A DNA stretch of 64,000 nt. It comes from Macrocybe gigantea. Lineage: Eukaryota; Basidiomycota; Agaricomycetes; Agaricales; Callistosporiaceae. Under the pieces are notes generated by a model. That model was not told the origin of the DNA. It worked only from the letters and a program-made list of their open reading frames with translations, and searched no databases. The stretch lies in NCBI GenBank assembly GCA_011319805.1, contig SJRY01000334.1, positions 1 through 64,000 of the forward strand. Reading direction: 5' to 3'. Below are positions 9,371 to 51,085 of the stretch, in pieces. The position numbers were made by a program, and so were the translations under genes. How positions within the stretch are numbered: position 1 is the first letter of the stretch; every line of letters starts with the position of its first letter.

Positions 9371-9414
9371 AGCTCCGGACACTTCCGAATGCAAACCTGA
9401 AGATGCTACCTCCA

Positions 9415-9485: not shown

Positions 9486-9497
9486 ACCAGCCCTCAG

Positions 9498-19270: not shown

Positions 19271-19683
19271 TTCATATATAAATGATCTATAATCATTATG
19301 GGCCCTGGTCTAAGTTTAGTAGATAGGAGCACCAACTGTTGGGACTGGTCTTCATTTGAAGCAGTCTTTACTCCACCAGTAGAAAACCAGGTAGTCATTC
19401 CTGTGACTCTGGGGTTAGGCCTTTGTGCTGACAACTGGGTGCTCAGTAGATAGTCCTTTTACTTTACTTAAGTAGACCAAGGGCACTTTCAGTAGCTAGA
19501 CCTTTCTTGACACACACTCTCCTGAGGGCAAGGCCAGTAGCACAGTCTCTCTCTCTCTCTGTTGTGGAACCCTGCCCAAGCAAGAGGATTGTGGTTGTAT
19601 TCCCAACCTCCCATCATTCCATTCCATTCCATCTCCTTGCCTCTATCCCTTTGCCATCTCCCTGCCTCTAGCATCTTACCATC
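19271..19683 (+). promoter_or_regulatory. Copia unit 2 leader upstream of gag
   Basis: This ~410-bp stretch contains no gene. It has a pyrimidine-rich (CT)n tract at 19546-19560 and a CT-rich segment just before the gag ATG at 19684. A candidate primer-binding site TGGAACCCTGCCC lies at 19565, since it starts TGG as a tRNA 3'-end complement would, but its distance from the LTR end makes this doubtful. Confidence 0.35.
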
Positions 19684-20991
19684 ATGTCTTCCTCTACCTC
19701 CATGCCTTCATTCACCAAACTCAACTCCACCAACTACCCTACTTGGTCTGGAGAAATGGAGGCTTGGCTCAGAGCCTGTGGCCTTTGGAGGATTGTCTCT
19801 GGTTCAAATCCAAGACCAGTAGACTCCACTTCTGCTGAAGCATGGGACCTAAAGTCAGACAAAGCAGCTGGCCAGCTCTACCTTATAGTGGAGCAGGAAC
19901 AAAGAATTCATTTCCATGGGATCAAAGATGATCCTGTAAAGATGTGGGCTGCTTTGGAAAAGGTCCATCTTCAAAAGAAGCCTGGCTCCAGGTTCAATGC
20001 CTATGATGATCTCTTCTCTATTAGGAAAAAGGAGGATGAAACTCTGCAATCCCTTATGAACAGAGTTGAGGACTGTCTGGTCAAAATTCAAAATCTTCGC
20101 CCAGCAGACTTCACTCTATCCAGCCTGGATAGTGAACTTGCTTCCATGGCCTTGATCAGAGCTCTTCCTGAGGAGTACAACTCCTTTGTCTCCTCCCTTC
20201 TTCTTCATGACAAGCTTGACAAAGATACTATCAAACAAGCCTTTGTTACTGAAGAGATCCAAAGGACTAGAAGATCTGCTGATGCTGCAGAGTCTGCCTT
20301 AAAGGCCACTACTTCCTCCCATTCCTCCAATTCATCTAAACAGAAGAACTCCAACTCCAATACATCACAGAAAAAGGACAAAACATGTGGATTCTGTGGT
20401 CTGGATCACTTCTGGAGGAATTGCCAACTTTACAAGGAGGCTCAAAAGGTGGCTAGGCAAAAGACCAAAGGGCAGGAGCAAGCCAACAAGGCTACAGAGT
20501 CTGAAGTAATCGAATTTGCTAGCAATGCAAGTGCCAAACTCTTTCATCCACTCCAACTGGATGCTGACTTTGATTGGATTGCAGACACAGAGGCCACTTC
20601 TCATATGACTCCTCATAAACACCAGGTCAGAAACTATACCCCTCTCAAGATTCCAATCAAGTTGGCAGATAGTTCTATTATTTATTCAGCTGGAGTTGGA
20701 ACTGTAATTTTGAATCCAGTTATTAGAGCCCAATCTGTAGAGTTTACTAGGGTCTTGCATGTGCCAGAACTCCGAAACAATCTATTGTCCTGTCTATATC
20801 TCTCCAAACACAAAGCTTTCAGGATTGTCATTGATGATTCCTGTATAGACTTTTATTCCAAACCATTCAACAGGACACTCTTCTCTGCTCACATCACTTC
20901 CAACAACACTGCTCAGTTGGATAGTGTAACAGAGGCAATTTCGGAGTTTGCAAACCTTGCTAGCATACTTCCCTTGGACCTTAGCTTATAG
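19684..20991 (+). pseudogene. Copia unit 2: Gag and protease
   Basis: The frame is complete from ATG 19684 (MSSSTSMPSFTKLNSTNYPT) through the UBN2-type Gag core (QRIHFHGIKDDPVKMWAALE, FVSSLLLHDKLDKDTIKQAF) and the knuckle CGFCGLDHFWRNC to the protease. The protease motif reads DTEATSHMT instead of DTGATSHMT, which should abolish the catalytic flap-side glycine. It ends at TAG 20989, where other Copia proteins have Trp (S-L-W-H-R-R-L). Unit 3 encodes the same 435 residues. Confidence 0.93.
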
Positions 20992-22236
20992 CATAGGAGA
21001 TTGGCTCATTTCAGTTATGACACTGTCAAACTAATGGCCAAGGATAACTTGGTAACTGGATTGGATCTCAAAACCTCGGACAAGCCAGATCCCATCTGTG
21101 AACCATGTTTTGCAGGCAAAATATCTTCAAACCCATTCCCTTCCTCAGACAGTCATGCTTCTCAACCTCTAGAACTTGTCCATTCTGATCTTTATGGCCC
21201 TCTTCCTGTTAAATCCCACTCTGGATTCAAGTATTGGGTTACTTTCATTAATGATTGTATCAGATTCAGAGTGGTGATACCTCTTAAACAGAAGAGTGAT
21301 GCATTTGATGCCTTTAGACAGTTTAAGGCCTATGCTGAAAACCAACTTGGCTTAAAGATCAAAGCTTTACAGGATGACAAGGGTGGAGAGTACATGTCCA
21401 ATGCCTTTATCAAATTCACCAATGACTGTGGCATTATCCGGAGACATACTGTCAGGAGTAGGCCTCAACAGAATGGAGTTGCAGAAAGAGCTAATCGGAC
21501 TATGACAGAAGAGTTAACTGCTATGCTGTCTGAATCCAAGCTGCCTGCTTCATTCTGGGGAGATGGTCTTGCTTCTATGGTGCATATTTGGAACAGAGTA
21601 CCTACTTCTGCTCTGTCTGGGACCACACCTTATCAGGCTTGGTTTGGGAAGAAACCAGATATCAGTCACCTCAGAATCTGGGGATGCACTGCATATGTCT
21701 TTGTGCAAAAGGATCAAAGGAAGAAACTGCAATCACACTACCAGAAATGCGTCTTTATTGGCTATCCTGATGGTTACAAGGGTTGGAAGTTTTACAATCC
21801 TACCACCAAAAAGACTATTATCTCGGAGAGGGCTGAATTTGATGAGAGATACTTCCCTGGTACCTCTCAGAAATATTACAGCACTCTACCTTCTCTTATC
21901 CTTCCTCTTGACCCACCTGCCTTGCAACCAGTTTCCCAAGACTCAGCTGTGCTGGAGTTAGGGGGAGGCTTTGATGCACCAAACCCTATTATGCAAGCAG
22001 CTCCCTCTGCTCCTGACCCAGAGCCTACCCCTCCACAGAGTCCAAATCTTCATCCTAGAACGCCTCCTGCTATTCACCAGGATGATAATCTGCCCCACAC
22101 ACCCCCTGTTAGACACAGAGTCCCAACTCCACTACCTCTTCCCAAAACTCTGCCCATTGCTATCAGGAAACCAGTCAGAAATGTCAAACCACCTGGTAAC
22201 TGGTGGGTCATCAGACCTGCTCCCCCACCAGTTTGA
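20992..22236 (+). pseudogene. Copia unit 2: integrase segment
   Basis: This segment encodes the same residues as unit 1 15451-16695, with the HHCC and three-acid integrase core followed by a proline-rich linker, and ends at the shared TGA 22234. The stops on either side are at homologous sites in all three units, so they predate the duplication. Confidence 0.92.
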
Positions 22237-23922
22237 GATGATTCTGATTCAGAAGACTCAATTTATGAGGATCCTCATCCTAATCCTGATGAAGAGGCTG
22301 GTTTTGTGGATGTCCAATTTGCTGGTCTAGCTGAAGGTGCAAATCCGAGCACTTATAAGCAAGCTATGCAATGTCCGGATGCTCACAAGTGGCAGGAAGC
22401 ATATAATGAAGAGATTATGTCACTTATGGGATATGGGACATGGGAGATTGTGGACTTGCCTCCAGGAAAGAAGGCTATTGGTTGTGGATGGGTTTTCATG
22501 GTTAAACGCAATGCAGATGGCTCGATTGAGCACTACAAAGCTCGATGTGTTGCTAAAGGTTTTAGTCAGAGACCTGGCATTGACTATACTGAAGTCTTTG
22601 CCCCCACATTTTGCCCTGCTGCTTTGAGACTTATCCTAGCCATGGCTGGTATTGAGGACATGGAACTTTGTTCTGTGGATGTTACCTCTGCCTTTCTTAA
22701 TGGTGATTTGGAGGAGGAAATTTATATGGTTCAACCAGAGGGGTTTCACCAAGGTGGTCCAAACCAAGTCTGCAAACTCTACAAATTGCTTTATGATCTT
22801 AAACAGTCTGCCAGACAGTGGAACAAGAAGCTACACTCTGTCTTATTATCTATGGGATTCAAACGACTCGAATCTGACTGCTCTATCTACCTCTATGTCA
22901 AGGGGGAGGTAAAGGTCATTGTTCCCATTTACATTGATGATATCACACTGGCTTCAAAGAACACTGCTGCCATTGACAAAGTGGTTGCAGAGCTGTCTAG
23001 ACAGTTCAAGATCAGAGACTTGGGACCAAGCACTTTCTTATTGGGTGTGGAGATTATTAGGGACAGGCAGAAGCGGACCATTGCACTTTTCCAGAAGCAG
23101 TACATCTTAAACACATTGGAGCGCTATGGGATGGTGGATTGCAAGCCTGTCAAGACACCTATGATGACAGGTCTTAACCTTTCCAAGGCAATAGCACCTC
23201 AAACTCCAGAGGAAGCAGACTTTATGCAGAACATTCCATACCTCAGTGCTGTTGGATCACTCCAGTACTTAGCTACCATGACTAGACTGGACATAGCAGC
23301 TGCTGTATCATGTCTGGGATGCTTCAACTCGAATCCTGGTCCACAGCATTGGAATGCAGTCAAGCATCTGCTGAGATATTGCAAAGGGACTTTAGACCTC
23401 AAGTTGACATACTCTGGAGATCTTGGTCCAGAGATGTTTACATCATTCTGTGATGCTTCACATGGTGATTGCCCAGACTCTGGACGCTGTACTGGTGGAT
23501 ATGTAACAATCCTTGGAGGTGGAGCTATTGGATGGTCATCCAAACTGCAGCCATTTGTCACGCTTTCTACTACTGAAGTGGAGTACATTGCTGCAGTTGA
23601 AGCTGGGAAGGAGATCTTATGGATGCGCAACATTATGCAGGAGATGGGATACCCTGTGTTGCAACCATCACCACTGAAGATTGACAATCAGTCTGCACTG
23701 AGTGTCACGAAGAATCTAGAGCATCATGGGCACATGAAACAGCTGGATTTGCGATACTTCTGGCTTAGGGATACAGTGGAGCAGAAGAGGATATGGCCTG
23801 AGTTTATCCCAAGAACTGAACAAGTTGCAAACTTGTTAACCAAACCACTTACTGTACCAAAGGTTGAATTCTGTAGACAAAGAATGGTTAGAAGTGCCCC
23901 TTCTGTCCGGACTTGTGCATAG
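22237..23922 (+). pseudogene. Copia unit 2: reverse transcriptase and RNase H
   Basis: The 538-residue frame (ATG 22306) is identical in translation to unit 1, with SVDVTSAFLNGD, YIDD and the RNase H acidic residues. It ends at TAG 23920 inside the partial 3' LTR. Complete motifs, but separated from Gag by two stops. Confidence 0.92.
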
Positions 23923-24026
23923 GACAGGACACAGGCTGTGCACAGCAATGCGCAGCCTGTGGCTACATCCACAGCAATGTACAGTATATAGCTGTGTTTA
24001 CAGCAATGCACAGCTTACACATACCT
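23888..24026 (+). mobile_element. Truncated 3' LTR of Copia unit 2
   Basis: Sequence equals 18347-18485, displaced by 5541 bp, and again gives way to the LINE 5' fragment. Confidence 0.75.
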
Positions 24027-24245
24027 ACACCTCTTTCCGCAATGCTGATTTATAAACATCTCTTGCACATCGCACTATCTGTTCTACAGTGACAACACTT
24101 GGACTGATCCTGTATCAAGTTGCAGACCTGGATTCTACATAATCTTGAGCACCTCTTTTTATCATATTGCAAAAATTGGCTGAAAATTGGCTGAGTAACA
24201 TTAGAGTCTTTCAATGAGCAATGATCTGCTCAATCTTGTTGGTGG
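24027..24245 (+). mobile_element. LINE 5' fragment between Copia LTRs (copy 2)
   Basis: This is the second copy of the LINE 5' UTR/ORF1-start fragment (ORF1 ATG at 24214). It has the same endpoints as 18486-18704. Confidence 0.82.
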
Positions 24246-24592
24246 TGTTAGAAATGCCCCTCCTGTCCAAACTTGTGCATAGAACAGAACCCAGGCTATG
24301 CACCTAACAATGCACACAGCCTATGGCTGTGTGCGCAGCAATGCACAGTACAAGCTGTGCATGCAGTAATATGCAGTATATGGCTGTGCCCGCAGCAATG
24401 TGCAGCCTATAGCTGTGCACACAACATCCTGTGAGTATATATAGGTAGCATAGAATGCCTTGAAGTCCTTAGTATTCTCACTCAGGACTTCTAGGCAAGT
24501 ACTTGTCCATACTCAATTATATATAGTATTCTCACTCAGAACTTCTAGGTTCTAAGGCTTGTTCAGAGCAGTCCCTGTGCTTAGTTTTAACA
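24246..24592 (+). mobile_element. Copia LTR, 5' LTR of unit 3
   Basis: This LTR matches 18705-19051 over its full 347 bp, with TGTTA/TAACA ends, the U3 repeat run and the TATA box GTATATATAGG. Confidence 0.72.
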
Positions 24593-25203
24593 CAGCCTTG
24601 CTATGGCCCAGCAGTATCTGGGTTGCCACTCATTTATGAATCATTCATAATCATTTACGAATCATTTGTAATCATTTACGAATCATTTGTAATCATTTAC
24701 GAATCATTTGTAATCATTTACGAATCATTCGTAATCATTTACGAATCATTCATAATCATTTACGAATTATTCATAAATAATTATGAATGATTCATATATA
24801 AATGATCTATAATCATTATGGGCCCTGGTCTAAGTTTAGTAGATAGGAGCACCAACTGTTGGGACTGGTCTTCATTTGAAGCAGTCTTTACTCCACCAGT
24901 AGAAAACCAGGTAGTCATTCCTGTGACTCTGGGGTTAGGCCTTTGTGCTGACAACTGGGTGCTCAGTAGATAGTCCTTTTACTTTACTTAAGTAGACCAA
25001 GGGCACTTTCAGTAGCTAGACCTTTCTTGACACACACTCTCCTGAGGGCAAGGCCAGTAGCACAGTCTCTCTCTCTCTCTGTTGTGGAACCCTGCCCAAG
25101 CAAGAGGATTGTGGTTGTATTCCCAACCTCCCATCATTCCATTCCATTCCATCTCCTTGCCTCTATCCCTTTGCCATCTCCCTGCCTCTAGCATCTTACC
25201 ATC
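24593..25203 (+). repeat. SINE2-like fragment, minisatellite and leader of Copia unit 3
   Basis: The order is as in 19052-19683: a SINE2-like ~29 bp, the 21-bp minisatellite (one fewer TTCG-type unit, accounting for the 5520 versus 5541 bp spacing), and a CT-rich leader before gag. No gene is present. Confidence 0.8.
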
Positions 25204-26511
25204 ATGTCTTCCTCTACCTCCATGCCTTCATTCACCAAACTCAACTCCACCAACTACCCTACTTGGTCTGGAGAAATGGAGGCTTGGCTCAGAGCCTGTG
25301 GCCTTTGGAGGATTGTCTCTGGTTCAAATCCAAGACCAGTAGACTCCACTTCTGCTGAAGCATGGGACCTAAAGTCAGACAAAGCAGCTGGCCAGCTCTA
25401 CCTTATAGTGGAGCAGGAACAAAGAATTCATTTCCATGGGATCAAAGATGATCCTGTAAAGATGTGGGCTGCTTTGGAAAAGGTCCATCTTCAAAAGAAG
25501 CCTGGCTCCAGGTTCAATGCCTATGATGATCTCTTCTCTATTAGGAAAAAGGAGGATGAAACTCTGCAATCCCTTATGAACAGAGTTGAGGACTGTCTGG
25601 TCAAAATTCAAAATCTTCGCCCAGCAGACTTCACTCTATCCAGCCTGGATAGTGAACTTGCTTCCATGGCCTTGATCAGAGCTCTTCCTGAGGAGTACAA
25701 CTCCTTTGTCTCCTCCCTTCTTCTTCATGACAAGCTTGACAAAGATACTATCAAACAAGCCTTTGTTACTGAAGAGATCCAAAGGACTAGAAGATCTGCT
25801 GATGCTGCAGAGTCTGCCTTAAAGGCCACTACTTCCTCCCATTCCTCCAATTCATCTAAACAGAAGAACTCCAACTCCAATACATCACAGAAAAAGGACA
25901 AAACATGTGGATTCTGTGGTCTGGATCACTTCTGGAGGAATTGCCAACTTTACAAGGAGGCTCAAAAGGTGGCTAGGCAAAAGACCAAAGGGCAGGAGCA
26001 AGCCAACAAGGCTACAGAGTCTGAAGTAATCGAATTTGCTAGCAATGCAAGTGCCAAACTCTTTCATCCACTCCAACTGGATGCTGACTTTGATTGGATT
26101 GCAGACACAGAGGCCACTTCTCATATGACTCCTCATAAACACCAGGTCAGAAACTATACCCCTCTCAAGATTCCAATCAAGTTGGCAGATAGTTCTATTA
26201 TTTATTCAGCTGGAGTTGGAACTGTAATTTTGAATCCAGTTATTAGAGCCCAATCTGTAGAGTTTACTAGGGTCTTGCATGTGCCAGAACTCCGAAACAA
26301 TCTATTGTCCTGTCTATATCTCTCCAAACACAAAGCTTTCAGGATTGTCATTGATGATTCCTGTATAGACTTTTATTCCAAACCATTCAACAGGACACTC
26401 TTCTCTGCTCACATCACTTCCAACAACACTGCTCAGTTGGATAGTGTAACAGAGGCAATTTCGGAGTTTGCAAACCTTGCTAGCATACTTCCCTTGGACC
26501 TTAGCTTATAG
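25204..26511 (+). pseudogene. Copia unit 3: Gag and protease
   Basis: The 435-residue frame is identical in translation to unit 2, including the DTEA protease change and the TAG at its end. Confidence 0.93.
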
Positions 26512-27756
26512 CATAGGAGATTGGCTCATTTCAGTTATGACACTGTCAAACTAATGGCCAAGGATAACTTGGTAACTGGATTGGATCTCAAAACCTCGGA
26601 CAAGCCAGATCCCATCTGTGAACCATGTTTTGCAGGCAAAATATCTTCAAACCCATTCCCTTCCTCAGACAGTCATGCTTCTCAACCTCTAGAACTTGTC
26701 CATTCTGATCTTTATGGCCCTCTTCCTGTTAAATCCCACTCTGGATTCAAGTATTGGGTTACTTTCATTAATGATTGTATCAGATTCAGAGTGGTGATAC
26801 CTCTTAAACAGAAGAGTGATGCATTTGATGCCTTTAGACAGTTTAAGGCCTATGCTGAAAACCAACTTGGCTTAAAGATCAAAGCTTTACAGGATGACAA
26901 GGGTGGAGAGTACATGTCCAATGCCTTTATCAAATTCACCAATGACTGTGGCATTATCCGGAGACATACTGTCAGGAGTAGGCCTCAACAGAATGGAGTT
27001 GCAGAAAGAGCTAATCGGACTATGACAGAAGAGTTAACTGCTATGCTGTCTGAATCCAAGCTGCCTGCTTCATTCTGGGGAGATGGTCTTGCTTCTATGG
27101 TGCATATTTGGAACAGAGTACCTACTTCTGCTCTGTCTGGGACCACACCTTATCAGGCTTGGTTTGGGAAGAAACCAGATATCAGTCACCTCAGAATCTG
27201 GGGATGCACTGCATATGTCTTTGTGCAAAAGGATCAAAGGAAGAAACTGCAATCACACTACCAGAAATGCGTCTTTATTGGCTATCCTGATGGTTACAAG
27301 GGTTGGAAGTTTTACAATCCTACCACCAAAAAGACTATTATCTCGGAGAGGGCTGAATTTGATGAGAGATACTTCCCTGGTACCTCTCAGAAATATTACA
27401 GCACTCTACCTTCTCTTATCCTTCCTCTTGACCCACCTGCCTTGCAACCAGTTTCCCAAGACTCAGCTGTGCTGGAGTTAGGGGGAGGCTTTGATGCACC
27501 AAACCCTATTATGCAAGCAGCTCCCTCTGCTCCTGACCCAGAGCCTACCCCTCCACAGAGTCCAAATCTTCATCCTAGAACGCCTCCTGCTATTCACCAG
27601 GATGATAATCTGCCCCACACACCCCCTGTTAGACACAGAGTCCCAACTCCACTACCTCTTCCCAAAACTCTGCCCATTGCTATCAGGAAACCAGTCAGAA
27701 ATGTCAAACCACCTGGTAACTGGTGGGTCATCAGACCTGCTCCCCCACCAGTTTGA
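26512..27756 (+). pseudogene. Copia unit 3: integrase segment
   Basis: This is identical in translation to units 1 and 2, between the same two stop codons (TAG 26509, TGA 27754). Confidence 0.92.
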
Positions 27757-29253
27757 GATGATTCTGATTCAGAAGACTCAATTTATGAGGATCCTCATCC
27801 TAATCCTGATGAAGAGGCTGGTTTTGTGGATGTCCAATTTGCTGGTCTAGCTGAAGGTGCAAATCCGAGCACTTATAAGCAAGCTATGCAATGTCCGGAT
27901 GCTCACAAGTGGCAGGAAGCATATAATGAAGAGATTATGTCACTTATGGGATATGGGACATGGGAGATTGTGGACTTGCCTCCAGGAAAGAAGGCTATTG
28001 GTTGTGGATGGGTTTTCATGGTTAAACGCAATGCAGATGGCTCGATTGAGCACTACAAAGCTCGATGTGTTGCTAAAGGTTTTAGTCAGAGACCTGGCAT
28101 TGACTATACTGAAGTCTTTGCCCCCACATTTTGCCCTGCTGCTTTGAGACTTATCCTAGCCATGGCTGGTATTGAGGACATGGAACTTTGTTCTGTGGAT
28201 GTTACCTCTGCCTTTCTTAATGGTGATTTGGAGGAGGAAATTTATATGGTTCAACCAGAGGGGTTTCACCAAGGTGGTCCAAACCAAGTCTGCAAACTCT
28301 ACAAATTGCTTTATGATCTTAAACAGTCTGCCAGACAGTGGAACAAGAAGCTACACTCTGTCTTATTATCTATGGGATTCAAACGACTCGAATCTGACTG
28401 CTCTATCTACCTCTATGTCAAGGGGGAGGTAAAGGTCATTGTTCCCATTTACATTGATGATATCACACTGGCTTCAAAGAACACTGCTGCCATTGACAAA
28501 GTGGTTGCAGAGCTGTCTAGACAGTTCAAGATCAGAGACTTGGGACCAAGCACTTTCTTATTGGGTGTGGAGATTATTAGGGACAGGCAGAAGCGGACCA
28601 TTGCACTTTTCCAGAAGCAGTACATCTTAAACACATTGGAGCGCTATGGGATGGTGGATTGCAAGCCTGTCAAGACACCTATGATGACAGGTCTTAACCT
28701 TTCCAAGGCAATAGCACCTCAAACTCCAGAGGAAGCAGACTTTATGCAGAACATTCCATACCTCAGTGCTGTTGGATCACTCCAGTACTTAGCTACCATG
28801 ACTAGACTGGACATAGCAGCTGCTGTATCATGTCTGGGATGCTTCAACTCGAATCCTGGTCCACAGCATTGGAATGCAGTCAAGCATCTGCTGAGATATT
28901 GCAAAGGGACTTTAGACCTCAAGTTGACATACTCTGGAGATCTTGGTCCAGAGATGTTTACATCATTCTGTGATGCTTCACATGGTGATTGCCCAGACTC
29001 TGGACGCTGTACTGGTGGATATGTAACAATCCTTGGAGGTGGAGCTATTGGATGGTCATCCAAACTGCAGCCATTTGTCACGCTTTCTACTACTGAAGTG
29101 GAGTACATTGCTGCAGTTGAAGCTGGGAAGGAGATCTTATGGATGCGCAACATTATGCAGGAGATGGGATACCCTGTGTTGCAACCATCACCACTGAAGA
29201 TTGACAATCAGTCTGCACTGAGTGTCACGAAGAATCTAGAGCATCATGGGCAC
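27757..29253 (+). pseudogene. Copia unit 3: RT/RNase H cut by LINE A
   Basis: The frame matches units 1 and 2 until NLEHHGH in the last third of RNase H, where LINE A begins at 29254 and the frame ends after a few LINE-encoded residues at 29292. The RT domain is complete. RNase H lacks its last motif and the C-terminus. The last 15 bases (29239-29253) are the left target duplication of LINE A. Confidence 0.93.
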
Positions 29254-37511: not shown

Positions 37512-37528
37512 GCTTGACTTCTTTTAGA
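37512..37528 (+). repeat. Target-site duplication of SINE1-a, left copy
   Basis: The 17-bp sequence GCTTGACTTCTTTTAGA recurs exactly at 38734-38750, directly after the A-rich tail of SINE1-a. Confidence 0.95.
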
Positions 37529-38733
37529 GGCCCCAGTAGCCCAGTGGTTTAATCGCCACTAAAGACTGGAGAGGTGGCTGTGCAGCTACTGGAAAGGTTG
37601 TGGGTTTGATTCCCACTCATCCCCTGTATCTTGAAAGTAGGGATAGGCATGTGACCTATCATCAGTTACAGTCATATGCTTGGTGATTCAGGTTGGTAAT
37701 CAACTCTGAGGCAGTACCATGGCCATGTGACCTTCCATAACTAGAGTGGTAACCTGGTCACATGATAGGGATAATCACAGGAGCCCAAAGTGGCAGGTCA
37801 GGTGACTCCTGACAGGCCGTGCCTGAAATAGTCATGTGATTTATCATATGATCAAGTAGAAAGTGAAAGCACAGGGCATGGTAAGTAGGGAAAGAACTTG
37901 AGAACTACCCGACCTATGATGCGCACCCTGTAATGGGGCATTCCAGAGCATGCATGCTTCTGGAAGGTGCCGTGCACCCTGTAATAGGGAGTTTCTTCAG
38001 ACTGCGAGCTTAGAACAGGACACCCTCCACTGTTTAATCTCATGCCCAGTCTAACCAACTGGATTAGGCTGGGAATCTGGTCGTTAGTCAGCATTGGTAG
38101 TGTAGACTGGTCCTTGGGCACATTTGGAGAGTCCCCAGACCTAGGAGTAGCCACCACATGACCATAAAGCACTGCTCAGATGGGAGCCTGAGACCTCCTT
38201 GTAGGGCATGCATAACTGGGTTAAGCATGGGTATAGAACTCCCTGGCCTAGGCCTTAGGTCTAGGATGCACACTGGGGCTGGATGCTGGCAAGGCAGAGA
38301 CCTGAGATACAATTGGGGATCCACGCCCTCTGGGCATCAGTAAACCATGTACTCAGAAGTGGGAAAATTAAAGTAGGTGGGGCTTACCAATACCCAGTGT
38401 CTCTGTTCACTTGGCCTCTTGGTAACTTGCTTCCTAGCTGAAATTTGGACTGTGGCAGACTAGGGCAGTCTCCTGACTCCGGCCTGAGAGGACTCATCCT
38501 CTGCCAGTTCACCTGGATGACTAATCCAGGCTTTGAATCTAAGTTGATTCTGGGGTCTAGACATGGAATTCCACCAGTTAGTCTAGCACCTATCCTGCAA
38601 AGGAGACAGTGATAAGGATCCTCCACTTGGAGGGCCCTAAACTTTGTGTATTTATCATAGGTACCCTCATGTATTTACAAGCGGACTGCCATCGAGCACC
38701 ACTATATAAATTGTTGCTTTAAAAAACAAAAAA
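37529..38733 (+). mobile_element. SINE1-a: 1.2-kb tRNA-headed retroposon
   Basis: It starts GGCCCCAGTAGCCCAGTGG with a tRNA-like head, continues through a ~1.1-kb non-coding body, and ends in the ~75-bp LINE 3' tail (GTATTTATCATAGGTACC...TATAAATTGTTG) and an A-rich end. Exact 17-bp duplications flank it in Gypsy G2a, proving its boundaries and a retroposition mode. No enzyme is encoded. The LINE tail suggests the LINE RT in trans. This is the most diverged of three copies (others at 44108-45270 and 48687-49849). It is about twice the usual maximum SINE length. Confidence 0.9.
37537..37613 (+). promoter_or_regulatory. Pol III A and B boxes of SINE1-a
   Basis: The A box is TAGCCCAGTGG (37537-37547) and the B box GGTTTGATTCC (37603-37613). 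The B box sits in a perfect 5-bp T-arm-like stem GTGGG/CCCAC. In copy c the B box is the consensus GGTTCGATTCC (48764-48774), so TTTG here is a CpG-decay form. The arms around it do not fold into a complete tRNA. Confidence 0.75.
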
Positions 38734-41390: not shown

Positions 41391-41891
41391 ATGAGCAGCG
41401 ATCTGCTCAATCTCATTGGCAGCAGGGGAGGCTTTGATCCTTCTTCACTTAATCCGCATCCTGGGCAGCCTGTCACAACTGCAGGCCCATCAGGCAGTCA
41501 GGCCATGCCCCAATCCTCAAGGAAAGCAGGCCTTCTTTTCCAAGGCAATGACAGCCTTATGGACACTGATAAAGCCCTACTTTCTGGTCCTGTTGGACCT
41601 TCCAACCCCACTGCTCCTTCCTCTCTATTTGTGCTATCCACCAATACAGCATATAATGATGACTTAATCAGCATAGCCTCCTTTGCTGAGGATGATTGGT
41701 TCCTCCATGGTGAGGCCAAGGCGGCCGCTGAATCCCTGGCTAGCTTGCGGGACTGGTTCCACAAGGTTGGCGCTTCCCCTGTCTCTATTCTGGCAGGTTA
41801 TCAATATGCACTTGCTGAGGGTATTGCAGCCTTGGTTGCAACTGCCAGTGAGGTCAACATGTTCTCTGTCCCCACCTTCGGCAGATCACAG
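41391..41891 (+). pseudogene. LINE I ORF1, N-terminal half
   Basis: The half has about 167 residues (MSSDLLNLIGSRGG..., LLFQGNDSLMDTD, AGYQYALAEGIAALV, VNMFSVPTFGRSQ), colinear with ORF1 of the other LINE copies at roughly half to two thirds identity by eye. The frame is cut by the 5' LTR at 41892. The continuation is at 43446 (HHLGACLQEIVDTA), with the CACAG duplication removed. Confidence 0.88.
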
Positions 41892-42111
41892 TGTCGGAAT
41901 ACGACCGTGACGCCAATGTCACTTGTCATGCCGATGCTGCGCCCGCCGCTATCCGCTGGCTAAAATAAAAGGAAGAAATTTTTTATTTACTAATTTAGAG
42001 TACAAACTGTGTATTTAAGCGCCCGAAAATCATAGAGTATGGGCACGCGTTTGCCCACCCGCCAATCGTCTCTCTTCGTTGCCGCGTCGTCATCCTTGGC
42101 TAATTTTATCA
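41892..42111 (+). mobile_element. 5' LTR of the gag-only element
   Basis: It begins TGTCGGAATACGACCG and ends TTTTATCA. A TATA-like TGTATTTAAGCG lies near 42010. The bases after the LTR (CAAATGCGCAAAACC) do not resemble the usual initiator-Met primer site. Confidence 0.92.
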
Positions 42112-42358
42112 CAAATGCGCAAAACCTTCGTCGAGTCCGTTGACCTGTCGTCCTGCCACAAGGGGCCGAAGCCTTGATTGATTGATTGCCATCGTTTCCC
42201 GTTTCGTCGCCGTTCGTCGTACCTTGATTGCCTATCGGAGGCCGAAGTCCGATTGATCTCGTCGTGTCCCTGTCGTTGTCGTCGCCGTCATTGTCGTTGC
42301 CGCCGTTGCCGTTATTGTCATTACCATTTTTGTCGCCGTCACCATCGTCGCCGCCGTT

Positions 42359-43171
42359 ATGCCATCACCAGATTCGAAGTTCGAAAAACTTACTGATGGA
42401 AATTATGTGGAGTGGAAAATCTATATGGAAGCCCTCTTAACAAGGAAGAACCTCTTCGAGGTTGTGGATGGAACCGAGAGACACCCAGGGGGGAATGAAG
42501 GGACGAAGAAGGTCAAGGACTTTTACCGAAAGCAGGCCGAGGCCCATGCCGAGATCATCCTCAATGTCTCATCATCCCAATTAGTCCATTGCAGTCCCGC
42601 GGACCCTTACGTCATCTGGACCAATCTGACAACCATTCATACAGCCCAAGGCCGTTCCACCGTGCTCGCTCTTCGCCGTCGTCTTCACCGTATCCATTTC
42701 GAGAAAAACGAGACCATGTCTGCTTATGTATCCCGCGTTCGTCACATCAGTTTCTTGCTTGACCAGGCCGGAGTTCCTGTTTCAGAAGAAGATATGATTC
42801 TCGCGATCACCGCCGGACTTCCCCATTCGTACGACAATCTTATCGTGTCGCTTGATGTCCTCGCTGATGAAGATTACAAATTGTCGACTATTATCACACA
42901 TCTCAATAATGAGTACGAACGTCAACACATGTATTCGTTCTCATCTCGCGTTGTCGAATCCAAAAATGATGAAGCCCTGTCCGCCGTTCACACGCCGTCA
43001 TCGAAACCAGCCCCGAAGCTCGCCCACATCACGTGCTTCTCCTGTGGGGAGAAGGGCCATTATCAGGCCAATTGCCCGAATTGCGCGCCCGGATCATCGT
43101 CTGCCAAACATGTCAAACATGCCGTTGCCGCTGCCGAAGTATCCGATTCCTATTCCGATGAAGGCCTCTAG
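42359..43171 (+). CDS. Copia-type Gag of the gag-only element
   Basis: The frame is intact, 270 residues. It opens with the Copia-Gag signature FEKLTDGNYVEWKIYMEALL, continues through a UBN2 core (VIWTNLTTIHTAQGRSTVLA, LRRRLHRIHFEKNETMSAYV, AITAGLPHSYDNLIVSLDVL) and ends with one CCHC knuckle CFSCGEKGHYQANC and an acidic tail. It should form particles and bind element RNA. No stop or frameshift is present, in contrast to all other Gag frames in the window. I chose the start because the Gag signature follows it directly. Confidence 0.92.
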   Translation: MPSPDSKFEKLTDGNYVEWKIYMEALLTRKNLFEVVDGTERHPGGNEGTKKVKDFYRKQAEAHAEIILNVSSSQLVHCSPADPYVIWTNLTTIHTAQGRSTVLALRRRLHRIHFEKNETMSAYVSRVRHISFLLDQAGVPVSEEDMILAITAGLPHSYDNLIVSLDVLADEDYKLSTIITHLNNEYERQHMYSFSSRVVESKNDEALSAVHTPSSKPAPKLAHITCFSCGEKGHYQANCPNCAPGSSSAKHVKHAVAAAEVSDSYSDEGL

Positions 43172-43216
43172 GCTTGCGGGGGAGTACCGCAACCCATGAG
43201 GATTGGCGTCGCGCTC

Positions 43217-43225
43217 GCGGGGGAG
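43217..43225 (+). promoter_or_regulatory. Polypurine tract of the gag-only element
   Basis: CGGGGGAG directly precedes the 3' LTR start. A second similar GCGGGGGAGT lies at 43177, after the gag stop. Confidence 0.65.
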
Positions 43226-43445
43226 TGTTGGAATACGACCGTGACACCAATGTCACTTGTCATGCCGATGCTGCGCCCGCCGCCATCCACTGGCTAAAAT
43301 AAAAGGAAGAAATTTTTTATTTACTAATTTAGAGTACAAACTGTGTATTTAAGCGCCCGAAAATCATAGAGTACAGGCGCGCGTTTGCCCACCCGCCAAT
43401 CGTCTCTCTTCGTTGCCGCGTCGTCACCCTCGGCTAATTTTATCA
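43226..43445 (+). mobile_element. 3' LTR of the gag-only element
   Basis: The LTR is 220 bp, the same length as the 5' LTR, with ends TGTTGG and TTATCA and followed by the duplicated CACAG. Confidence 0.92.
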
Positions 43446-43709
43446 CACAGCACCATCTTGGAGCATGCCTGCAAGAGATTGTGGACACTGCCTCCTCTTC
43501 TTTCTGTGGAAAGGCAACTCATTTCACTGACCCCGCTTGTCACACATCTCCTTCAGGCATGATTCACCCGCAGGACTCTTGCTCTAACCAGAGCACACGC
43601 CCTTTGAGACCACCTCAGAACCCGAATCACCCTTCCTCCCCACCTCCATGATCTTGCTCCCGGACTCCTGGATGAGGCCCTCTGCCTCCTGTCAACAGGG
43701 CTACTTGCC
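43446..43709 (+). pseudogene. LINE I ORF1, continuation
   Basis: This continues ORF1: LGACLQEIVDTA, the FTDPACHTSPSGMIHPQDS block (FADPHTSPSGMVCPEDS in LINE B) and a proline-rich part. It stops at a TGA near 43650 and is cut by LINE H at about 43709, before the zinc knuckles. Confidence 0.85.
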
Positions 43710-44107
43710 ACCTCTTTCTGCAATGCCCATTTGTAAACAAGTGTAAACAACTCACTGTCATCATTTCCATTGCTCTACACCGTCATCGACTGGGCAGATC
43801 TCATATCAAGTTGCAGACCTGAGTTCTACATACTCTTGAGCACCTTCATCTTTCATATTGTGAAAATTGGCTGAAAATCAACTGACCTACCAGAGTTTTT
43901 CTATGAGCGACGACCCGCTCAATATTGTCAGCAGCGGGGCCATGCACCGCTCAACCCACACCCTGGATGGCCCTCTGCTGGCCCATCCCGTTCCCCCGCT
44001 CCTCCTCCCCCATTGGGGAATGCGAGCCTCCTCTTCCAAGGTGGCGACAGTCTCATGGATACCAACGACACCAACCCCTCTAATGCAGGAGGGCCTACCA
44101 TACCCTC
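43710..44107 (+). mobile_element. LINE H (+), left part: 5' UTR and ORF1 start
   Basis: The leader CTCTTTCTGCAATGCCC starts at 43712 and the ORF1 ATG is at 43903 (MSDDPLNIVSSG). The sequence ends at GGAGGGCCTACCATACCCTC, where SINE1-b begins. The direct continuation of this LINE is found inverted at 48686 leftward (see the inversion entry). Confidence 0.9.
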
Positions 44108-45270
44108 TTTTTTTTTTTTTTTTTTTTAAATCAACAATTTATAAAGCGGTGCTCGATGACAGTCTGCTTGTAAATACACAACGGTACCTACGATAAATAC
44201 GTGAAGTTTAGGGCCCTCCAAGTGGAGGACTCTTATCACCGTCTCCTTTGTAGGATAGGTGCTAGACTAAACAGTGGAATTCCATGTCTAGACCCTGGAA
44301 TCAACTTGGATTCAAAGCCTGGATTAGTCATCCAGGTGAACCGGCAGAGGATGAGTCCTCTCAGGCCGGAGTCAGGGGACTGCCCTGTTCCGCCATGGTC
44401 CGAATTTCGGCCAGGGAGCGAGTTACCAAGAGGCCAAGCCGACAACAAGCTGGGTATTGGTAAGCCCCACCTACTTTACTTTTCCCGTTCCTGAGCACGT
44501 GGTTCGCTGATGCCCAGAGGGCGTGGATCCCCAATCGTGTCTCAGGTCTCTGCCTTGCCAGCATCCAGCCCCAGTGTGCACCCCTAGACCTAAGGCCTAG
44601 GCCAGGGAGTTCTACACCCATGCTTAATCTGGTTATGCATGCCCCACAAGGAGGTCTCAGGCTCCCACCTGAGCAGTGCTTTACAATCATGTGGTGGCTA
44701 CCCCTGGGCCTGGGGACTCCCCAAGTGTGCCCAAGGACCGGTCCACACTACCAACGCTGACTAACAACCAGGTTCTCAGCCTGATCCAGTTGGTTAGACT
44801 GGGCATGAGATTAAGCAGTGGAGGGTGTCCTGTTCTAAGCTCGCAGTCTGAAGAAACTCCCTATTACAGGGTGCGCATCATAGGTCGGGTGGTTCTCAAG
44901 TCATTCCCCCACTTACCACACCCTGTGCTTTCGCTCCCTACTTGATCATATGATTAATCACATGACCATTTCAGGCACAGCCTGTCAGGGGTCACCTGAC
45001 CTGCCACTTTGGGCTCCCACAATCATCCCTATCACGTGACCAGGTTACCACCCTGGTTACGGAAGGTCACATGACCGTGGTACTGCCTCAGAGTTGATTA
45101 CCAACCTGAGTCACCGAGCACATGACTGTAACCAATGATGGGTCACATGCCTATCCCTACTTTCAAGGTACAGGGAATGAGTAGGAATCGAACCCACAAC
45201 CTTTCCAGTGGCTGCACAGCCACCTCTCCAGTCTTTTAGTGGCGATTAAACCACTGGGCTACTGGGGCCC
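44108..45270 (-). mobile_element. SINE1-b (-)
   Basis: A complete SINE1 in reverse: poly(T) 44108-44127, LINE tail, body and tRNA-like head ending at 45270 (GGCCCCAG on the minus strand). It differs from SINE1-c by only a few bases as far as I can see. Its two flanks do not form a target duplication with each other. Each pairs with a flank of SINE1-c instead. Confidence 0.9.
44950..45160 (-). promoter_or_regulatory. E-box cluster in SINE1-b body
   Basis: These are the reverse of the sites in SINE1-c: CATGTG, CACGTG and CAGGTG hexamers within about 200 bp next to the tRNA-like head, at least six in number, most with the flanks GTCAxGTGAC. Confidence 0.55.
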
Positions 45271-47030
45271 GACATCAAAAGCAATGACACTCATTTTGAG
45301 ACCCTTTAGCCAGCCTTGCTGGATAATATGGGTTAAGAAGACACCCACATCCTCCGTGGAGTTCTGCCGGATGCCACTGAACTGCTTCAGGTCAAAGACA
45401 ACAAATTTAGTCGCTTCGTATTGCATACACCATGCTAGCATTTTCTCGATGAGTTTGCCGAGAGTATTCAAAAGCACAATCAGGTGAAGGGCCTTTGGGG
45501 TATTTGTATGCAGGTTTGCCGGGTTTCGGAATAATCACCGACAGGCTCTGCTTAAAGTAACAGGGCCAATGGCCCAGTTCCAAACATGCATTAGCAATGT
45601 TCAGGATGAAATCAGCCAAGTGAGGGAATTTCACCAGCTGCTTAACATGGCCCCAGGACAGATGATCTGGTCCTGGGTGGAGGTATTGCTACAAGGCTCT
45701 AAGAACTCTCAGAGTTCTGCAGCAGAGAACGGGACCCAGTCCCGAATTGGATGGGGCTCGAGCTCATCGAGCTTATCCAGATTAACTGGCCTGTCAGATG
45801 CAGTGTTGTAGGATTTGTCAAGCACATTCCACAGCAACTCGATAGAGTTACAAGGCTGTCCCTGAAAGAAGATGGCCTCATAGGCTGGAAGCAGCCTTTG
45901 CTTCATCTATGCAGCTAAATCTCATGGATGTCATGATTTTTCTGCAACTTCCTTGATTTGCTGATCAAAGAAGGTCACCTTCAGACTGGGTCTGCCTGAA
46001 GGTGTCCAAAGTTTCAGAACAGTGCTGATTCCACCAGCCTTTGCTCCTCTTCGATAGCTTGCACTCCTTAGAATGAAGGTCCCAAGCATGGTCAACTGAT
46101 CTGGAGAGAGTCTGGAGGATGCTTTCTAAATCATCTGGTGACTCGATTGGCACCAAGTCCATACCGAGCAGATCACTAGCAATGTTGGAGATAAACTCGG
46201 GCATGCTGTCCTTTGAAAGAGTCCGGCGTAGATCAGAGAGGTCTAACAACAGGATATCTAAAGAGAGAGACAATGGACAATGGTCCGAAGTCAGTCTCAG
46301 GTCATCACGAATGACCGGTGCCACCCCTGCCACATCAACAGGGGTAAACATCAAATTGATAACTGAGGGCCGCAGCTCCACATTATGTGAGATGAAGGTC
46401 AGGCCATGGTTAGATGGCTCCATCCAGTTGAGACCAAGGTCAAGTGCTGCATTGCACAGCATCTCTCCTCGTGTATGCTGTGAAGTATGAACTCCATCCC
46501 AGAGTTCATAATGACAATTGAAGCCCCCTCCTAAGTAAGATAGGTTGGGGAAGTCAGGTCTTTCAGCACAGTTGTGCAGCAAATGAATAGCGCTTCCGTC
46601 TACATCAGAGTAGGTGGTTGCAAGGAATAGAGGCTCCCCCGGAGTGGAGAAGCTGATAATCATCAGATCGTGACTATCAACAAGATCGCATCAAAGGGAG
46701 GGACACAACCAATATAAGCAGTTGTGGACATATGCCATCACACGAGGAGGATCCTCATATGATGAGTGGTGAACAATGCAAGTCCAGTCAGGATGGCTGG
46801 GACCTCCGATTACTGGCTTACTGTCAGTGCTATGCTTGTCTCAATAGGTTCCAAGCGGGCTCTTGGAAGAACAAAATATCATAGTCCTCTCCAAGAGTGG
46901 AGAGGAGGATGTCTATATGTACATATTTCCTATTTACGTTTTGAGAGAAAATACGAAATGAAGAAATCAAAGAGCATCTGCCTGACCCAGGGACAACAGC
47001 CAGGGCTGATCCATTGGAGGTGTTACTCAT
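45271..47030 (-). pseudogene. LINE H ORF2: endonuclease and start of RT
   Basis: It starts at ATG 47030 (MSNTSNGSALAVVPGSG). The endonuclease motifs FFQEPAW, GGGFNCHYELWDG (GGD changed to GGG) and SDHCPLSLSL extend to about 46000. RT begins with the conserved HLADFILNIANACLELGHWP segment and ends at SVIAFDV at the SINE site. There are breaks near 46800, 46670, 45960 and 45480. The rest of RT is at 49850-50890. Confidence 0.88.
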
Positions 47031-48686
47031 GATGCATCAGCCTCCGCATTATGCTGCGGGGAGGCATTAGAATATTTGAAACTTGATCGTATTTGATCAT
47101 GTACCAGCTGATAGTGTTGTTTGATCCACTCGGGATCGAAGCAGTTCTTCCAGAAGATGCACTTCCGGTCATCAGTGGAGTGGTCTTTGCCACAGCTAAG
47201 ACACTTCGGAGCATGCGGGCAGGGTTGGCCTGCCAGAGTTGCCACACAAGGAGGGTTAGCCTTGGGTCTTGCCTTGCAGCAAGATGCAAGTATGCGGTGG
47301 TGCTCCTTTCTATGGGACTCCCCACAGATCGGGCAATGGAGGGACTGCTGGTTACACTTCAGAGCAGAGAGTCCACAGCGCCAACAACATTTGCAGAAAG
47401 GAACTCTCAGCAATGAGAGAGCAGCATGAAAGCGGCATTGCCAGTTCCGGACCATAACGGTGCAGTTGTCCAGAGCTTTGATATTCTGGCCAGTTGATGT
47501 GTCCTTGATATTGAACCAAACAGTCACAGTATCAGAATTCTTGGAGTTGCGCATAATGCGAGGAACCCCAATGAGGGTGATGAGGTCTGAGAATGAGGAG
47601 TCTCGGAGAATCTCGTATGCTTGCTGGGCAGTGATAACACTTCCGTCAGCATTGAAATAAGGTACGTCAAGCAGTTTCACATAGGAAACGCTCATAGGAA
47701 TAGTGAGCTCGACGGTAGAACCAGCTGGAGCGCACTGGAGGGCAGCCTCACACAAGATGCCAAGGTCCTTCAGTGACGCCACTTTCATCATCAGGCAAGA
47801 GAACGAAGAGGTGGAATGGTCCTGGATGGACTCACATCGGATCCAGGATTTACCAGCCGTCAGCCCTTGATTGAAGGCAGAGAGAAGAGTTCCAGCAGCA
47901 ACAGAAGCATTGTCTGCAGGGAAGGTGAAGGTCACTCTGACATTACGTCACATGGCCCATGGGAAGTGGACTTTGCCTTCTTCTTGGGCAGTCCGGAAGA
48001 CTTCCTGGTCACTTCCTTTTGCAAGGAGATAATCTTCTCCATGGGGAGGTGTGGAAAGGTCTTTGCCAAAGCAATGATGGCTTCAGCAGGGGTATTGGCT
48101 GGTTGGGCCAAGGCTTGCGCATATGAGCGCTTGCCAGCAGCAGGGTGGGTAGCCCTATTGACAGGAGGGGGCGGACCATGACCCAGAGTTTGGAAGCAGG
48201 ACCGCAGTTGTGGTGGAGGGGGGCAGTTTGGATTCTGAGGCAGTCTCGAAGGGCGAGCGCCCATGTTCAAACGAGAGTCTTCTGGGCATACAGTGCCAGA
48301 AGGAGAGGTGTGAGGGTCAGCAAAACGAGTCACTTTTCCATGAGAGGGGAGGTGGGCATTGACAATTTCTTGCAAACGCCTACCTAAGGGGTGCTGGGGC
48401 CTGTTAAGCATAGAGATGGAAAACATATTGATGTTGCCTGCACTGCTGACCAAAGTCGCAATGCCCTTACAATGGCATATTGATATCCTGCTGGAATAGA
48501 GACAGAGGATGAGCCGACCTTCAAGATCCAAGCTTTGAGGGCAGCGAGAGATTTGGCTGTAGCCTTAGCTTCACTGTGAAGGAACTGATCCCCTTTGGAA
48601 AAGATCATAATGCCAATAGTGTTGTCGTTGTATGCTGCCTCAGTGGACAGAATCGATGGAGAGGGAGGAGCAGAGGGTATGGTAGA
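47027..48686 (-). pseudogene. LINE H ORF1, main part
   Basis: This covers the middle and C-terminal ORF1: PPPPVNRATHPAAGKRSYAQ, KKKAKSTS, AGTLLSAFNQGLTAGKSWIR, VSYVKLLDVPYFNADGS, and then zinc clusters CKCCWRCGLSALKC, CPICGESHRKEHH and CLSCGKDHSTDDRKC. The first cluster has Leu where copies K and B have His. Frame breaks lie near 48530 and 47932. The stop overlaps the ORF2 start as ATGA. Confidence 0.88.
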
Positions 48687-49849
48687 GGGGCCCCAGTAGC
48701 CCAGTGGTTTAATCGCCACTAAAAGACTGGAGAGGTGGCTGTGCAGCCACTGGAAAGGTTGTGGGTTCGATTCCTACTCATTCCCTGTACCTTGAAAGTA
48801 GGGATAGGCATGTGACCCATCATTGGTTACAGTCATGTGCTCGGTGACTCAGGTTGGTAATCAACTCTGAGGCAGTACCACGGTCATGTGACCTTCCGTA
48901 ACCAGGGTGGTAACCTGGTCACGTGATAGGGATGATTGTGGGAGCCCAAAGTGGCAGGTCAGGTGACCCCTGACAGGCTGTGCCTGAAATGGTCATGTGA
49001 TTAATCATATGATCAAGTAGGGAGCGAAAGCACAGGGTGTGGTAAGTGGGGGAATGACTTGAGAACCACCCGACCTATGATGCGCACCCTGTAATAGGGA
49101 GTTTCTTCAGACTGCGAGCTTAGAACAGGACACCCTCCACTGCTTAATCTCATGCCCAGTCTAACCAACTGGATCAGGCTGAGAACCTGGTTGTTAGTCA
49201 GCGTTGGTAGTGTGGACCGGTCCTTGGGCACACTTGGGGAGTCCCCAGGCCCAGGGGTAGCCACCACATGATTGTAAAGCACTGCTCAGGTGGGAGCCTG
49301 AGACCTCCTTGTGGGGCATGCATAACCAGATTAAGCATGGGTGTAGAACTCCCTGGCCTAGGCCTTAGGTCTAGGGGTGCACACTGGGGCTGGATGCTGG
49401 CAAGGCAGAGACCTGAGACACGATTGGGGATCCACGCCCTCTGGGCATCAGCGAACCACGTGCTCAGGAACGGGAAAAGTAAAGTAGGTGGGGCTTACCA
49501 ATACCCAGCTTGTTGTCGGCTTGGCCTCTTGGTAACTCGCTCCCTGGCCGAAATTCGGACCATGGCGGAACAGGGCAGTCCCCTGACTCTGGCCTGAGAG
49601 GACTCATCCTCTGCCGGTTCACCTGGATGACTAATCCAGGCTTTGAATCCAAGTTGATTCCAGGGTCTAGACATGGAATTCCACTGTTTAGTCTAGCACC
49701 TATCCTACAAAGGAGACGGTGATAAGAGTCCTCCACTTGGAGGGCCCTAAACTTCACGTATTTATCGTAGGTACCGTTGTGTATTTACAAGCAGACTGCC
49801 ATCGAGCACTGCTTTATAAATTGTTGATTTAAAAAAAAAAAAAAAAAAA
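48687..49849 (+). mobile_element. SINE1-c (+)
   Basis: A complete SINE1: head GGCCCCAGTAGCCCAGTGG, A box 48697-48707, consensus B box GGTTCGATTCC 48764-48774, E-box cluster, body, ~73-bp LINE tail from 49758 and poly(A) 49831-49850. It has the best preserved pol III boxes of the three copies. It forms the right arm of the LINE H inversion. Confidence 0.92.
48806..49000 (+). promoter_or_regulatory. E-box cluster in SINE1-c body
   Basis: Six sites in under 200 bp: GCATGTGACC, GTCATGTGCT, GGTCATGTGACC, GGTCACGTGATA, GTCAGGTGACC and GGTCATGTGATT. The core form GTCACGTGAC is palindromic. The same kind of cluster occupies the same place in SINE2, although the two tRNA-like heads differ. Confidence 0.55.
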
Positions 49850-50890
49850 ATTGCTTTCGATGTCACTCAATATTTTCCTTCTCTTGACCATTGTATGTTA
49901 GTAAGGATACTACAGCACAGAGGCTTTGCGCGTCAAGTGTCAAAGTTCTTTGAATCCTACCTCGTTGGGCACAAGACTTCATATGCCTGGCGCAGTGCTA
50001 TCTCACCAGAGTTTGATGCCGATGTTGGTGTCGGCCAAAGCTCTGCCCTATCTCCGGTACTGTCAGCCTTGTACTTGGCACCAGTACTGAAAATATACCA
50101 GAAGGTTGACAATATGCTGACCATCATGTCATTTGTAGATGATGGGCTGATTATTGCTCAGTCCAAATCCATCCCGGACAATGTTCTGAAACTTCAGAGG
50201 GCATATGCGTCCATGCACAACCTCTTTACGGACTTCGGTCTTGTTGTCGAATACAACAAAACCAAACTGCAGCACTTCTCGTGCAATAGTAAGGATCCCC
50301 ATCCTTCTATTGACTTGGGTTTTGCCCTGTTCATAGGCAACACTCCCTTACAGCCCAAGGACATTTGGAGATACCTTGGGTTCTTCTTGGACGCGCGCCT
50401 ATCCTTTAAGGAGCATGTCCATTTCTATGCAATGAAAGTGCTGACTACTGCCAGGGCTTTCCAGATGTTAGGCAATTCTGTTCAGGGCTTATCCCCTCAA
50501 CAGAAGTGCATCCTTTACCTGTCATGCACATGTCCTATCACAACATACAGCTGTTTGCTATGGAACTTCAATGGCATGCACAATGTCACACTATTGAAGC
50601 AACTATGCCAGATGCAGCGCAAGGCTTGCATTTGGATTAATGGTCAGTTCTGCACCACTCTAGAGGGTGCAGCTGAAACGATGGCCTGTGTTGAGCCAAT
50701 CGCCAGGTTCATCAAGCATTTGAAAGTTGGGTCCGCTGCCCGTCTTGCTAATTCCAATCCGAGGCATGCCCTCAGGTCTCTTACCTCCCTGCCACAGGTG
50801 GGGGGGGATCCTTTGAGGTCAAAGAACTTGACCTCCCTCTCAGACAGGCAGCGTAGTGTGCTCAAGTCCCCTCTCAAGGACTTGGTGGAC
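49850..50890 (+). pseudogene. LINE H right part: RT to RNase H linker
   Basis: The frame from 49895 has 341 residues. It contains the RT core GVGQSSALSPVLSALYLAP (G-to-S change at the usual GQGSALSP), FVDDGLIIAQ with both catalytic Asp, and the thumb (QRKACIWINGQFCTT). It ends within SDRQRSVLKSPLKDLVD, where the LINE G leader starts at about 50891. The RNase H and 3' end of LINE H are lost. Confidence 0.9.
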
Positions 50891-51085
50891 AACACCTTTC
50901 TCTGCAACGCCCACTTGTAAATAAGTGTAAACAACTCTTCTCATCGTTGAATCCATTCTACACCTTGATCAACTGGGCCAATCTCATATCGAGTTGCATA
51001 CCCGAGTTCCTAACACTCTTGAGCACATCTGTTTTTCATATCACGAAAATCGGCTGAAAATCCACCGAATTATTAGAGTTTTTCG

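Follow-up and report, generated by a model that had tools for sequence, protein, structure and literature searches.

A probable SINE-mediated inversion inside a LINE of the fungus Macrocybe gigantea, with both sets of target site duplications exchanged

As described by Lee et al. 2008 (PMC2603318), recombination between L1 or Alu elements has mediated inversions in human and chimpanzee, and non-matching target site duplications (TSDs), among other methods, tell the ancestral state. For inversion 2z3 of Drosophila buzzatii, Delprat et al. 2009 (PMC2775673) describe exchanged TSDs at copies of Galileo, which are read as a sign of ectopic recombination. Gene conversion among Alu elements, which are short interspersed nuclear elements (SINEs), has also been described (PMC8230782). 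For Agaricomycetes, the account in PMC10627285 presents the long interspersed nuclear element (LINE) marY2N and the Alu-like element megB1 of Tricholoma, the latter being dimeric and residing in the ribosomal DNA (rDNA) spacer of many Agaricomycetes. Here we describe a LINE of Macrocybe gigantea, LINE H, whose middle is inverted between two opposite copies of a SINE-like element, SINE1-b and SINE1-c. The window analysed is the first 64 kb (64,000 nucleotides) of contig SJRY01000334.1 (C332; 86,982 bp) in an assembly of 41.2 Mb and 333 contigs. Judged from the assembled sequence, homologous exchange between the inverted SINEs accompanied by gene conversion is very probably the best explanation of the flipped middle.

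The flanks of the two SINEs carry the central evidence. The features concerned are the following, with positions in the window:
44108..45270, minus strand: SINE1-b, 3 differences in 1163 bp to SINE1-c; its flanks match those of SINE1-c, not each other.
48688..49850, plus strand: SINE1-c, 3 differences to SINE1-b; its flanks cross-match those of SINE1-b.
44095..44107, plus strand: copy of TSD1, CTACCATACCCTC, adjoining the poly-A end of SINE1-b; its reverse complement is identical to 48673-48685.
48673..48685, plus strand: copy of TSD1, GAGGGTATGGTAG, on the head side of SINE1-c, with two extra bases preceding the head.
45271..45285, minus strand: copy of TSD2, ATTGCTTTTGATGTC, adjoining the head of SINE1-b and matching 49850-49864 at 14 of 15 bases.
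49850..49864, plus strand: copy of TSD2, ATTGCTTTCGATGTC, adjoining the tail of SINE1-c, its first A common to TSD2 and the poly-A.
37528..38733, plus strand: SINE1-a, for comparison, an ordinary copy, diverged and flanked by a 16-bp TSD of its own.

SINE1-b and SINE1-c form inverted arms of 1163 bp each around a spacer of 3417 bp, the whole unit measuring 5743 bp. Both lack a TSD of their own (flank score below 4.5), but their flanks match crosswise: the tail flank of SINE1-b equals the head flank of SINE1-c at 13 of 13 bases in reverse complement (TSD1), and the head flank of SINE1-b matches the tail flank of SINE1-c at 14 of 15 bases (TSD2). An earlier note on this DNA had claimed such cross-matching flanks, and exact alignment bears it out. 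Its second flank pair does match with one difference, although the flank of SINE1-b lies at 45271-45285 and not, one base off, at 45272-45286. The two extra bases between TSD1 and the head of SINE1-c are AG; one to four extra bases stand at the same place in 14 of the 19 SINE1 copies that have their own TSD. The 16-bp TSD of SINE1-a, a copy about 10% diverged, is perfect.

Head and tail flanks were scored against each other in 40 SINE1 copies (34 with a head and 6 partial copies with a tail), and an own TSD was called at a score of at least 4.5, which 19 of the 34 copies with a head reach. As a chance control, 1326 comparisons between the head flank of one copy and the tail flank of another gave a 99th percentile score of 2.98. 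The b-c and c-b comparisons score 11.5 and 12.6, and a score of at least 8.5 is reached by four of the 1326: these two, L025-L016 and L025-L043p, the last two representing one second locus. Chance resemblance of the TSDs at SINE1-b and SINE1-c is rejected by this null.

The order of the host LINE agrees with the exchanged flanks. LINE H consists of three pieces:
43709..44107, plus strand: left (5') piece, 92.0% identical to LINE-A; only a flipped middle is collinear with it.
45271..48687, minus strand: inverted middle, a minus-strand match to LINE-A and LINE-B, holding the endonuclease-domain part and, by position, the part of the first open reading frame (ORF).
49851..50890, plus strand: right piece with the reverse transcriptase (RT) part, 88.2% identical to LINE-A.

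Exo_endo_phos_2 is matched in 45965-46690 of the middle (E 3.9e-08) and RVT_1 in 49820-50920 at the right piece (E 2.8e-10), while 47027-47947, assigned by position to the first ORF, gave no Pfam match. When the SINEs are removed, LINE H as it now stands falls apart at both junctions into opposite-strand pieces relative to LINE-A and LINE-B, whereas with the middle flipped it runs collinear with both paralogues across both junctions, as was predicted by the statement that turning the middle over restores one continuous LINE. Aligned to LINE-A, the paired flanks overlap by 14 bp at site 1 (48685 falls on 13877 and 44108 on 13864) and by 15 bp at site 2 (49850 on 10724 and 45271 on 10710), and each target is therefore single copy and SINE-free there. 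At the aligned TSD1 site, a single difference is seen in LINE-A, and LINE-B and LINE-C show two each. In the site search, site 1 was not found in LINE-I and site 2 was not found in LINE-C.

One exchange event between the inverted SINEs explains both TSDs and the collinearity. LINE H would have gained two SINE1 insertions in opposite orientations at sites 1 and 2, each with its own TSD of 13-15 bp. The inverted 1.16-kb SINEs would then have paired and exchanged by non-allelic homologous recombination with an odd number of crossovers, which would have turned over the 3.4 kb between them and given each SINE the TSD half of the other. The 99.7% identity of SINE1-b and SINE1-c most likely arose by gene conversion between them, which may have preceded, accompanied or followed the crossover. 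Any odd number of flips leaves the same signature. We infer homologous exchange as the route and its order relative to conversion, and likewise that the DNA itself, not the assembly, was flipped. SINE1-b would accordingly be chimeric, its tail end derived from the site-1 element and its head end from the site-2 element, with SINE1-c as its chimeric counterpart.

A second locus, on contigs C272 and C271, displays both arrangements. On C272, a plus-strand SINE (L016) and a minus-strand SINE (L025) enclose 4.9 kb, and their TSDs are swapped: CTGCACAGAGTGA ends the head flank of L025 and starts the tail flank of L016, and the corresponding site in LINE-B has one copy of it. A segment of C271 is near-identical to C272 (98.8-100% where compared). 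At its start, C272 matches C271:36535-37738 in reverse (100% after rounding), the left flank plus SINE also matches in reverse (99.4%), and so does the right flank (C271:15477-16395, 99%), whereas the SINE-middle-SINE block matches in direct orientation (98.8%). The middle is therefore turned relative to both flanks. On C271, the SINE named Y has CTGCACAGAGTGA on both sides, and from these TSDs C271 is read as the uninverted and C272 as the inverted arrangement. SINE Y is split by an insert of about 6.3 kb with a LINE-type poly-A tail, whose sequence was read at its ends only; the insert has a 14-bp TSD of its own, GGATTAGGCTAGGA (L047 718-731, L046 672-685). C272 and C271, which lose collinearity further out, could be alleles or duplicates.

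The heads of these SINEs also fit an inversion. Between X, the other SINE of C271, and Y, the head shows 20 substitutions and 2 indels, and 680 bp of tail show none, a contrast that marks a conversion boundary. With alignment column 497 left out because of an edge effect at the extreme end of the Y head record, L025 has the Y alleles at 19 of the 20 head substitutions and L016 has the X alleles at 19 of the 20, and both indels agree. The C272 heads thus carry the parental alleles expected from an inversion, but the crossover falls in a tract where the parents are identical. At columns 435, 797, 921 and 1025, both C271 copies have one base and both C272 copies another; at the tail sites 986 and 1135, the two C272 copies disagree. 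The SINE-mediated inversion within one LINE that the earlier note proposed is supported by the swapped TSDs, by the single targets in paralogues, by the restored collinearity and by this second locus with both arrangements.

The near-identity of SINE1-b and SINE1-c calls for a separate account. Among 33 near-full-length SINE1 copies that were aligned (a lower bound, further copies existing outside the alignment), mean pairwise identity is 91.1% over 528 pairs, as against 99.74% between SINE1-b and SINE1-c; the next relative of SINE1-b reaches 95.4%. The longest identical run between the two is 902 columns, compared with 114 for any other partner of SINE1-b, and one of their three differences lies outside CpG. 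They have in common 5 private substitutions and a 51-bp deletion bounded by direct repeats of 13 bp (CGCACCCTGTAAT), all absent from the 31 other aligned copies. The deletion junctions lie as follows:
44856..44883, minus strand: 51-bp deletion junction in SINE1-b, common to both copies.
49075..49102, plus strand: 51-bp deletion junction in SINE1-c, with exact matches at two places in 41.2 Mb, SINE1-b and SINE1-c.

That the two SINEs are nearly identical while SINE1-a is diverged had been seen correctly (3 differences in 1163 bp against about 10%), but exchange alone does not create near-identity as had been supposed. Because the private deletion and 5 substitutions are shared, the near-identity points to gene conversion or to a shared recent source. 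The second of these, in which SINE1-b and SINE1-c would be two recent insertions from one deletion-bearing source, with no conversion and with the inversion following later, concerns the conversion part only; it is a serious though less probable alternative. Young copies of one source would likewise look alike, and the pair does look young, private changes numbering 1 in SINE1-b alone, 0 in SINE1-c alone and 5 in both. However, the junction search gave no third exact match in the 41.2-Mb assembly; 39 of the 41 matches listed carry 1-3 mismatches. Since no source copy was found, gene conversion is the simpler account, although a source may have been lost or left unassembled. Conversion between close inverted SINEs is moreover visible at C271 and, by the run-length test, at C272, C143 and C309.

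In this test, run with 2000 trials each and assuming even site rates, the identical runs of the C272 and C143 pairs were matched in 0 of 2000 trials; P was 0.0025 for C309 and 0.022 for C227, and it fell below 0.01 in 11 of 515 different-contig pairs. These tests support conversion at C272, C143 and C309 and do so weakly at C227. Five of nine examined inverted SINE1 pairs within 20 kb are mutual nearest relatives; here the C272 pair was ranked without L015, its C271 homologue, the C271 X/Y pair was omitted because Y is split, and further nearby copies, such as more on C244, stand outside the count. The only direct pair within 20 kb among the 33 copies, SINE1-a with SINE1-c, are not mutual nearest relatives. 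A general homogenisation of nearby inverted SINE pairs was rejected, as it failed on both pairs added as a check: the members of the C244 pair (L051, C244:187400-190950), opposite copies about 1 kb apart of which one is truncated, are 89.9% identical and rank 28 and 4 of 35, and the C65 pair is 88.1% identical with ranks 32 and 15 of 35. The C244 copies, unlike those of other pairs, are not homogenised. Local inverted duplication was likewise rejected as a cause of the likeness between neighbours, 280-bp flanks of L014/L023, L017/L022 and SINE1-b/SINE1-c sharing nothing head to head or tail to tail; those of L032/L034 share only 13- and 15-bp matches. Polishing errors could mimic part of the homogenisation, but not the retained head differences.

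Several results weigh against exchange with conversion as the explanation. No uninverted copy of the LINE H locus was found in the assembly, where no other match to the middle exceeds 88%; an uninverted state is present for the second locus only, in C271 versus C272. Internal chimerism of SINE1-b and SINE1-c cannot be demonstrated because they differ at 3 sites only. With 2 mismatches only, the run-length test is powerless for this pair (P 0.12). Low P values also occur farther apart, at 0.0045 for L015/L028 (27 kb, inverted) and 0.001 for L037/L039 (53 kb, direct), and the conversion effect is therefore not cleanly confined to close inverted pairs. Four of the nine nearby inverted pairs, including both added ones, are not mutual nearest relatives. 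At the second locus, SINE X has no recognisable TSD in either C271 or C272, and C272:17901-18700 and the C272 end have no collinear C271 partner among the best 40 candidates. To these is added the 99.7% identity of the 1163-bp inverted repeat itself, through which an assembler could have joined the 3.4-kb middle the wrong way at a locus that is truly uninverted.

Such an assembly flip would leave the same swapped TSDs, so that "proved", the earlier note's word for the inversion, is too strong; the second locus could in principle be a flip as well. We consider a flip improbable. On C332, a 15-kb stretch of near-identical units, each about 5.5 kb long, is resolved and free of N; this suggests that the reads exceeded the inverted unit of 5743 bp (5.7 kb) in length. 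The assembly also contains at least one contig of 1.28 Mb. The C272 SINEs, set apart by 22 substitutions and 2 indels within their first 400 columns, would be hard for an assembler to confuse. An inversion without SINE homology is highly improbable: twin-priming does invert LINE segments, but as it inverts a 5' end during insertion it would not exchange the TSDs of later SINEs and was rejected on this argument, end-joining of breaks at the SINEs would rarely leave both complete, and both inversion ends lie at SINEs with both TSD sets exchanged.

The elements at the inversion ends have several hallmarks of SINEs: copies of 1163-1215 bp are dispersed and have a poly-A end and TSDs, and the last 93 bp are 95.7% identical to the 3' end of LINE-B, as expected of a partner LINE. 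No ORF of at least 130 aa lies wholly inside SINE1-b or SINE1-c. As to the RNA polymerase III promoter, which SINEs derive from a tRNA, 7SL or 5S gene, a match to the A-box consensus is present in all 33 aligned copies and a strict B-box in 12. TTTT is absent from 31 of the 33, copies that are related to one another, but shuffling alone removes it from a copy in 5.6% of trials. The Rfam tRNA model scores 17.1 bits against a cut-off of 29, a plastid family on the other strand scores higher but also below cut-off, and ARAGORN found no tRNA. SINEs are usually shorter than about 0.7 kb. SINE1 is very long for a SINE, and because its length exceeds the usual range, "SINE-like" is the safer term.

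The window is dense in nested retroelements, namely LINEs with endonuclease and RT domains and long terminal repeat (LTR) elements (Copia-type; RT/RNase H-integrase domains). The best named relatives of the LINE RT come from Agaricales such as Candolleomyces and Cyclocybe, and from Tricholoma. The RT ORF of LINE-B is 53% identical over 68% of the query to the "Pol-like protein Pol-2" of T. matsutake, which we take to be the protein of marY2N. At 14271-29253, Copia units of about 5.5 kb, 99.7-99.9% identical, stand head-to-tail in a 15-kb array without N, which ends abruptly on both sides near the 5' ends of LINE-A and LINE-B. LINE-A itself seems to be broken in its 3' part (7306-9503) by one or more additional LINE-tailed insertions; the LINE pieces there point in both directions. 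At 41890-43447 lies a short LTR element with 224-bp repeats (96% identical), one gag ORF (PF14223, PF00098) and an apparent 5-bp TSD, CACAG; since only about 1.1 kb separates the repeats, there is no room for pol. It resembles the elements known as TR-GAG.

LINE H provides an unusually complete record of a SINE-mediated inversion outside animals, as both exchanged TSD sets are kept and single targets persist in paralogues. The second locus in the same assembly adds a TSD-matched uninverted and a TSD-swapped inverted arrangement with a conversion boundary inside the SINEs, so that the coupling of conversion and inversion between inverted retroposons becomes directly testable in a fungus. The order of transposable elements in such regions may differ between nuclei. 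A more speculative and rather unlikely extension is that in this fungus LINE-tailed SINEs of 1.2 kb, where two lie close together in opposite orientation, serve as switches that flip repeatedly, the arms being kept alike by conversion and hence able to exchange; if so, both spacer orientations, as in C271 and C272, would persist in the nuclei of one strain or population.

The kind of event is known from primate L1/Alu elements and Drosophila Galileo, and this fungal case is new: among the matches listed, titles and abstract openings of open-licence literature gave no fungal SINE inversion with exchanged TSDs. As in other inversions mediated by retrotransposon recombination, homologous copies lie in opposite orientation at the inversion ends and, lacking TSDs of their own, have exchanged TSD halves. 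By the description in PMC10627285, marY2N is likewise an Agaricomycete LINE with a poly-A tail, whereas megB1, with whose description rather than sequence SINE1 was compared, differs as a dimeric Alu-like element of the rDNA spacer. Conversion among Alu elements, as presented in PMC8230782, is also non-allelic conversion on SINEs; here it concerns inverted fungal SINE-like pairs and is joined by the inversion itself. Galileo 2z3, in the description of PMC2775673, similarly combines opposite copies with exchanged TSDs and single targets in the non-inverted chromosome. However, Galileo is a DNA transposon with 7-bp TSDs in a natural chromosomal inversion, and the present element is a retroposon around 3.4 kb in one assembly. 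The L1/Alu inversions, as PMC2603318 portrays them, share with LINE H an inverted non-LTR pair, an inversion between its members and elements, chimeric there and putatively so here, with non-matching TSDs. Unlike them, the present case, read from an assembly, involves a fungal SINE-like element of about 1.2 kb inside one LINE with both TSD sets cross-matching, and the same assembly contains both arrangements of a second locus.

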